DNA from: Xanthomonas rydalmerensis
GTDB taxonomy: Bacteria; Pseudomonadota; Gammaproteobacteria; Xanthomonadales; Xanthomonadaceae
Assembly: GCF_033170385.1 (NCBI RefSeq)
Contig: NZ_CP126170.1
Location: 4,860,001 to 4,924,000 of the forward strand
Length of the DNA: 64,000 nt
Reading direction: 5' to 3'
This document shows, piece by piece, positions 58,706-59,056 of this stretch. The notes below the pieces were generated by a model that was not told the origin of the DNA, did no database searches, and saw nothing but the letters and a program-made list of their open reading frames with translations. Position 1 is the first letter of the stretch, and each line of letters starts with the position of its first letter. The translations under genes and the position numbers were made by a program.

Positions 58706-58850
58706 GGGTCCTGTCTCCTCATCGCATCACCACCGGGCGGGCGGCGATGGACAGGACAAGCGAACGCGCGGCGCAAGGGCCCCGACGTCGTTCCGCTCGT
58801 CAGGTTGCCCACCGCAACACCCGAGAAAGAACGTCGCAGGACGTCCACGT

Positions 58851-58997
58851 CAGGCCGGTCTCCGGGCTTGCGAGCAATGCGCGACCGCATCACCCCGACA
58901 CCTTCCCGCTTGCGCAGTGGTCTGTTGTCGGGTGTTCTCGCCTACCGTTGCGGGGGCAGCGCCGGCATCGGACCGGCTTCCCGTTTCACCCGGTGCG
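58851..58997 (-). promoter_or_regulatory. Cobalamin (B12) riboswitch in the mmsA-queH leader
   Basis: On the minus strand the sequence runs GGTGAAACGGGAAGCCGGTC, then GCGCTGCCCCCGCAACGGTAG (the B12 box region), CCACTG, GGAAGGTGTCGGGGTGATG and finally AAGCCCGGAGACCGGCCTG. These are the conserved blocks of the cobalamin aptamer in the correct order and orientation. The P1-like ends CAGGCCGG/CCGGTC close the core. The aptamer faces mmsA with no gene in the 145 nt between, so it should repress the operon when adenosyl- or related cobalamin is abundant. The expression platform was not resolved. Confidence 0.93.
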
Positions 58998-59029
58998 TCT
59001 TGCGACGACCAGGCACCTGAAGCGTGGCC

Positions 59030-59056
59030 AGTGTAGTCGCGCCGCGGCGACAGCAA
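59030..59056 (-). promoter_or_regulatory. Candidate promoter upstream of the cobalamin riboswitch
   Basis: On the minus strand a TTGCTG-like -35 (59051-59056) and TACACT -10 (59030-59035) are spaced 15 bp, placing the start near 59024, just before the aptamer. Spacing is short, so this is tentative. Confidence 0.35.

Follow-up and report, generated by a model that had tools for sequence, protein, structure and literature searches.

A cobalamin riboswitch ahead of a valine-degradation operon ending in queH in Xanthomonas rydalmerensis, with IcmF and QueG as candidate B12-dependent counterparts

The stretch of Xanthomonas rydalmerensis DNA analysed in this study (64,000 nucleotides, hereafter the window) carries a cobalamin riboswitch on its minus strand, directly in front of an operon that opens with mmsA and closes with queH. 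The explanation preferred here, which is considered probable by a modest degree, is that one switch governs two B12-free substitutes, the mms genes for the mutase IcmF and QueH for QueG. An OFF-type riboswitch responding to adenosylcobalamin would lower the whole operon, the direction and the ligand both being assigned by analogy with the riboswitch's family. The first substitute, mmsA-acd-ech-hibch-mmsB, would oxidise valine-derived isobutyryl-CoA to propionyl-CoA without B12, and the B12-dependent alternative would be IcmF, whose gene lies at another place in the genome and which would rearrange isobutyryl-CoA to butyryl-CoA for beta-oxidation. The second, QueH, would stand in for the B12-dependent QueG at the final step of queuosine synthesis. 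Both B12-independent targets have a B12-dependent counterpart in the same genome (queH/queG and mms/icmF), which is the pattern of an isozyme regulon, and isozymes of B12-dependent enzymes have been described as one of four functional categories of cobalamin riboswitch targets (PMC3766115).

The riboswitch and the operon

The initial annotation had placed a cobalamin riboswitch on the minus strand ahead of mmsA, and this was confirmed by Rfam cmscan, in which the whole of RF00174 was matched (model positions 1–189 of 189, running from 59035 to 58836) with a score far above the gathering threshold of 31.5 bits (E 9e-26; Table 1). The stretch first delimited, 58851–58997, is the inner part of this full match. 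The riboswitch and mmsA are separated by 130 nt, in which no minus-strand ORF was found among the listed ORFs of 120 aa or more. A single weak hairpin resembling a terminator lies in the leader at 58849–58835 (5 pairs, tail ACGTTCTTTC). It is one of 4 terminator-like matches in the 7.1 kb scanned, against a mean of 2.4 in shuffled sequences, and is not a convincing terminator. The initial annotation's statement that no gene lies between riboswitch and mmsA is borne out at the level of these listed ORFs. Three genus mates have the riboswitch at the corresponding position, with identities of up to 98%.

Table 1. Features of the riboswitch-mms-queH locus, in order of transcription (window coordinates)
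Feature	Position	Strand	Basis
Cobalamin riboswitch aptamer (RF00174), whole model	58836..59035	(-)	cmscan 106.9 bits
P13-like hairpin CTCGG..GTTGC-GGYGG-GCRAC..CGAG	58790..58830	(-)	Conserved motif; loop and 5' arm complementary to aptamer L5 region GCCCCCGCAAC
Predicted translation-start sequestor, GTCCTGTC pairing with GACAGGAC directly ahead of GTG start	58706..58760	(-)	Folding only
mmsA, methylmalonate-semialdehyde dehydrogenase, 507 aa	57182..58705	(-)	TIGR01722 730 bits (cut-off 448.5)
Acyl-CoA dehydrogenase, 396 aa	55992..57182	(-)	Pfam Acyl-CoA_dh domains; isobutyryl-CoA step inferred from operon
Enoyl-CoA hydratase, 269 aa	55186..55995	(-)	PRK09076 435 bits (cut-off 286); ECH_1
3-hydroxyisobutyryl-CoA hydrolase (HIBCH), 395 aa	54014..55201	(-)	PRK05617 336 bits (cut-off 274); ECH_2
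mmsB, 3-hydroxyisobutyrate dehydrogenase, 296 aa	53127..54017	(-)	TIGR01692 398 bits (cut-off 291.6)
queH, B12-independent epoxyqueuosine reductase, 220 aa	52468..53130	(-)	PF02677 211 bits (cut-off 23.5)

The six-gene operon with overlapping gene ends that had been described from mmsA to queH is borne out, as all five junctions overlap (by 1, 4, 16, 4, and 4 nt in the order of transcription, with ATGA at the mmsB/queH junction) and the family scans support the gene names. Elsewhere in the window, a match to the Xanthomonadaceae sRNA family sX13 (RF02232, 116 bits) lies at 936–822 on the minus strand.

The window genome, a single contig of 5.04 Mb, has four cobalamin riboswitches, of which the one at mmsA scores highest. 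The other three precede genes for an NrdA-type ribonucleotide reductase alpha subunit, a TonB-dependent B12 receptor (btuB-like), and a metE-like protein, these names being the best families of part-length proteins that score below whole-protein cut-offs. The invariant core of the window's aptamer is common to 28 aligned aptamers. Overall, the element is genuine and looks functional; it belongs to a known riboswitch family, and its targets are unusual.

Cobalamin riboswitches ahead of queH

QueH (PF02677) has been reported as a B12-independent replacement of QueG (PMC5372724), and as in this known pair both genes are present in the window genome. Within the family, queH is found in 72 of 395 genomes, the window's included, and Rfam scans of the fetched neighbourhoods placed a cobalamin riboswitch ahead of it in 44 of these 72, in four layouts. 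The mms genes lie between riboswitch and queH in 19 genomes, the riboswitch is directly ahead of queH in 14, metE intervenes in 10 (verified in 10/10), and a short MetE of family PRK06520 intervenes in 1. No riboswitch was detected upstream of queH in the other 28 within the fetched stretch, which was mostly 5 to 7.5 kb, although one of these (G072) could not be judged as its contig ends 129 nt upstream of queH. The 28 comprise 19 genomes of genus g17, 3 of g1, 2 of g47, and 4 singles, and a member of g17 (G035) possesses QueG as well as its riboswitch-free queH.

Among the close relatives (60 genomes: the window's own, 19 of the same genus, and 40 others) a cobalamin riboswitch was found in 59. 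A close mmsA (97% identity) is present in three of the 19 genus mates (G007, G010, and G019), and in each of them the riboswitch precedes mmsA and queH closes the operon. QueH is encoded in 9 of the 60 genomes, the window's included; QueG is missing from G002 and G016, while in G050 QueG is represented by weak matches below the cut-off. In G002 and G016 the 5 to 6 kb fetched upstream of queH contain no riboswitch, which would fit a constant need for queH in these QueG-less genomes.

In a tree of the aptamers, which was a quick reconstruction with long branches in which the btuB aptamer of the window genome groups with those of mms type, the mms-type riboswitches are set apart from the metE and queH types. 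The riboswitches directly ahead of queH cluster together within the metE ones, as though metE had been lost from between riboswitch and queH. The pattern points, short of proof, to queH having been brought under cobalamin riboswitches two or more times in the family.

Among the best 80 of 577 named queH loci, some of which are from the same genomes, a riboswitch was found upstream in 16. Luteibacter yeojuensis and Dyella mobilis have the mms layout with a riboswitch. In the alphaproteobacterium Paracoccus caeni the riboswitch is directly ahead of queH (68 bits with our own model), and in another, Devosia soli, it heads a riboswitch-metE-prpC-prpB-queH unit (locus L191, 1895–7639; Rfam, 120 bits). 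The habit is not universal, however, because no riboswitch was found close to queH in any of 29 QueH genomes from other families of the phylum (among these, G714 is below the family cut-off and queH of G610 is 540 nt from a contig end). The logic proposed in the initial annotation, that a B12 riboswitch fits queH as the B12-independent counterpart of QueG, is supported by QueG in the same genome, by the four layouts in the family, and by the two alphaproteobacterial loci, and queH can be regarded as a well-supported target of the riboswitch.

Several further observations were made at these loci. A Luteibacter MAG (L130) has mms genes running into queH with no detectable riboswitch, unlike L. 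yeojuensis and D. mobilis. The prpC and prpB genes of D. soli are methylcitrate genes, of the B12-free propionate route, that share a B12-riboswitch unit. Near a riboswitch-metE-like-queH operon in G020, an SAH riboswitch (RF01057, 44.6 bits; L051, 4694–4803, plus strand) lies just ahead of an ORF that is presumably adenosylhomocysteinase-like, as we recognise its sequence. A contig labelled Bacillus subtilis SK7B5 (L147, 4147–7642) carries a riboswitch-metE-queH arrangement of Stenotrophomonas type and is probably a contaminant or a mislabelled record. In G060 a cobalamin riboswitch follows queH and points away from it (L078, 8266–8446, plus strand), and queH is in two frames in G090, in G274, and in one of the two G211 copies (L125, L123, and L124), through frameshift or assembly error.

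The mms genes and IcmF

PF01642 was used to look for methylmalonyl-CoA mutase in 73 genomes (the 72 queH genomes and G319), 20 of which gave matches. The sole protein of the methylmalonyl-CoA mutase (MCM) family found in the window genome is an IcmF of 1200 aa, which scores 1651 bits against NF045497 (equivalog cut-off 1500) and 1287 bits to PDB 4xc6, and which, like these known IcmF proteins, has fused B12-binding, G-protein, and mutase domains (Pfam). Against the MCM equivalog PRK09426 it reaches 355 bits, where the cut-off is 876. Ten of the 20 mutases were fetched, and all have the B12 motif, the G-protein motif, and F and Q at two substrate positions (RMFAGEG, KEDQAQN), as has 4xc6 at the aligned places. 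We take these two positions to be the ones that decide the substrate, with Phe/Gln in IcmF where methylmalonyl-CoA mutase has Tyr/Arg. The remaining ten are represented by domain matches only, with the same split. A Glu/Leu/Phe/Val dehydrogenase gene lies beside icmF in 6 of the 10 fetched loci, and no riboswitch was found ahead of icmF in any of the ten (best match 10 bits). The mms pathway starts from isobutyryl-CoA, for which IcmF and the mms genes would thus compete; IcmF would handle valine carbon, and the two routes would replace each other here. ICM is listed among the B12 enzymes (PMC2667541).

A close mmsA is present in 104 family genomes, with the riboswitch in front of it in 20. The mutase was found in 19 of the 20 genomes with the riboswitch at mmsA and in none of 48 without (68 of the 104 scored; Fisher 6e-16, uncorrected for descent), and the 9 of those 19 mutases that were fetched are all IcmF. 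G319 is the single genome scored for the mutase among the 37 that have a close mmsA and no queH. In 55 riboswitch-negative genomes, our own model found nothing above 11 bits in the 600 nt upstream of mmsA.

The riboswitch at mmsA also tracks a contiguous queH, which follows in 19 of 20 genomes with the riboswitch and in 1 of 82 without when G298 and G072 are excluded. When G298 is counted, the latter figure becomes 2 of 83; its operon is broken across contigs but continues into queH, and the 600 nt examined contain no riboswitch. This association, together with the 24 of 72 queH genomes in which the riboswitch stands before queH directly or via metE with no mms genes between, favours a different account, in which the riboswitch serves queH alone and the mms genes were merely carried along when operons fused, their repression being tolerated. 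The mutase and queH correlates are entangled, and therefore the exceptions matter.

When mms operons running into queH are considered by themselves (21 scored), the riboswitch is present in 18 of 18 genomes with the mutase and in 1 of 3 without (p 0.014). G319 has the riboswitch, the mms genes, and IcmF, and lacks queH; in comparison with G194, flanks that are 95–96% identical enclose a clean loss of ~0.6 kb containing queH. G090 likewise has the riboswitch, the mms genes, and IcmF, and its queH sequence shows a frameshift, which may be an assembly error. Retention of the riboswitch in these two genomes speaks against queH as the only target, as do G366 and G298, in which mms genes run into queH with neither a riboswitch nor a mutase match, the mutase association itself, and the riboswitch-mmsA link reported in Streptomyces griseus (PMC8914203). 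On the other side is G337, in which riboswitch, mms genes, and queH occur with no mutase match and which speaks for queH. Control of queH alone is thus regarded as rather unlikely, and the view in the initial annotation that repression of valine degradation would be a side effect appears doubtful, given the mutase counts and the riboswitch kept after the queH deletion in G319.

G319, G090, and the mutase association could also be taken to mean that the riboswitch serves the mms genes alone, following the IcmF logic, with queH as the passenger. This is very unlikely, as queH sits under other cobalamin riboswitches that lack mms genes. Control of both substitutes is the preferred reading, and for the valine genes the better reading, held with some confidence, is that they are themselves a target, with IcmF as their counterpart.

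The initial annotation had also raised the routing of propionyl-CoA, in which the switch would tune its supply to a B12-dependent methylmalonyl-CoA mutase as against the methylcitrate cycle. The mms pathway makes propionyl-CoA, and in D. soli the genes behind a cobalamin riboswitch include prpC and prpB alongside metE and queH. For the window genome the idea is a misfit, with IcmF as the sole MCM-family protein found, and an OFF switch would halt the supply exactly when the B12-dependent mutase could use propionyl-CoA. It was dropped as no canonical MCM was found, and is given hardly any credence.

The IcmF half of the preferred reading rests on co-occurrence, seen in sequence data, with few independent events. 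Genome G017 has IcmF and no close mmsA. In genus g48, G379 has the riboswitch-mms genes and IcmF, on different contigs, and its 23 genus mates have neither, but do have a close mmsA; in genus g47, G393 has riboswitch-mms and IcmF, and G366 and G397 have neither. On a tree of mmsA (76 rows) a single change of riboswitch state is seen, which leaves one independent pair and places significance out of reach, and an attempt to prove the IcmF link by independent contrasts failed on that single pair. On this tree G379, G337, and G393 cluster with the riboswitch carriers and apart from their genus mates, which suggests that the operon was transferred or retained as a whole.

Mode of control and relation to known systems

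The P13-like motif (Table 1) is present in 20 of 22 riboswitch-mms leaders, being absent from the two of Rhodanobacteraceae. In the ligand-free minimum-energy fold, the 5' arm and loop of this hairpin pair with GCCCCCGCAAC around L5. A kissing contact is known for the cobalamin riboswitch family, and the predicted pairing would fit either such a contact at L5, to which the complementarity points, or an alternative pairing of the ligand-free state.

A hairpin at the start region is predicted for the last 80 nt of the leader. In the window the GTG start codon is paired (0.999) and the Shine-Dalgarno-like GAGGA is unpaired (0.03), while in 18 leaders outside the window's clade GGAG is paired with a probability of 0.67 or more. 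When Shine-Dalgarno pairing was set against that in mmsA leaders that lack a riboswitch, the difference was weak evidence (p 0.015), with only 12 of 55 controls usable and the window's clade misfitting in that its Shine-Dalgarno is unpaired and its start codon paired. A transcription terminator as the control device of the leader was rejected and translational control preferred, because the leader shows only one weak terminator-like hairpin; these folding predictions would favour control at the translation start for the operon.

With B12 plentiful, the aptamer would close, the P13-L5 contact would form, and the mmsA start region would be held in a hairpin, turning the operon down. The effect could reach queH, 5.6 kb downstream, by translational coupling of the overlapping genes or by polarity, and in the absence of B12 both the mms genes and QueH would be made. 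We infer ligand binding, the direction of the response, the translational mechanism, and the reach to queH. That this translation-level mechanism is a prediction from folding leaves some room for the element being a relic, or acting elsewhere with no control of the operon, but the full-length aptamer with its invariant core, the P13-like hairpin in most leaders, and the same position in Xanthomonadaceae and two Rhodanobacteraceae make this highly improbable. Chance or relic was dropped as an explanation on the RF00174 score, the family layouts, and the conserved hairpin.

The metE/metH pair has been tested as a cobalamin riboswitch case (PMC9600662). Like the riboswitches at metE and nrd genes, in which RF00174 shuts off a substitute when the B12-dependent enzyme works, the window's riboswitch would act on substitutes, but its targets are a whole five-gene catabolic pathway together with queH. 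The terms 'mmsA' and 'COG1636' do not appear in the main text of PMC3766115, nor 'queH' and 'valine' in that of PMC9600662. The available text of PMC10570037, PMC6593275, PMC5372724, PMC11071462, PMC6461909, and PMC7694415 makes no mention of a cobalamin riboswitch before queH, QueH having been left out of the analysis in PMC6461909, and that of PMC11494915 does not make the mmsA-riboswitch link. Neither a queH-riboswitch link nor a pairing of IcmF with a riboswitch-controlled mms operon was found in the literature search, which covered main texts; such an absence is weak evidence.

A close known system on the mms side is that of Streptomyces griseus, in which a cobalamin riboswitch has been reported before the MMSDH gene and valine-degradation genes, with growth-phase-dependent premature termination in transcript data (PMC8914203). 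It is like the window in having the riboswitch ahead of the MMSDH gene, but belongs to another phylum and shows termination, where sequestering of the start is predicted here. Its authors noted a complete lack of work on cobalamin and these enzymes and, in the text available, offered no explanation, and 'isobutyryl' does not appear in the main text (PMC8914203).

A broader proposal can be put forward tentatively. The riboswitch may switch a whole carbon route, to IcmF with B12 and to the oxidative mms operon without it, and the combination of a riboswitch at mmsA with a B12-dependent isobutyryl-CoA mutase may be a general rule with separate origins in the Xanthomonadaceae/Rhodanobacteraceae and the streptomycetes, queH being a second recurrent target. 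Streptomycetes have isobutyryl-CoA mutase.

The explanation preferred here would offer a reason for a B12 sensor on valine breakdown, a link that was reported unexplained in S. griseus, and would extend the set of B12-independent substitutes controlled by cobalamin riboswitches to include queH and a catabolic pathway of five genes. A further prediction is that the B12 supplied by neighbours would alter both the use of branched-chain amino acids and the completion of queuosine on tRNA.
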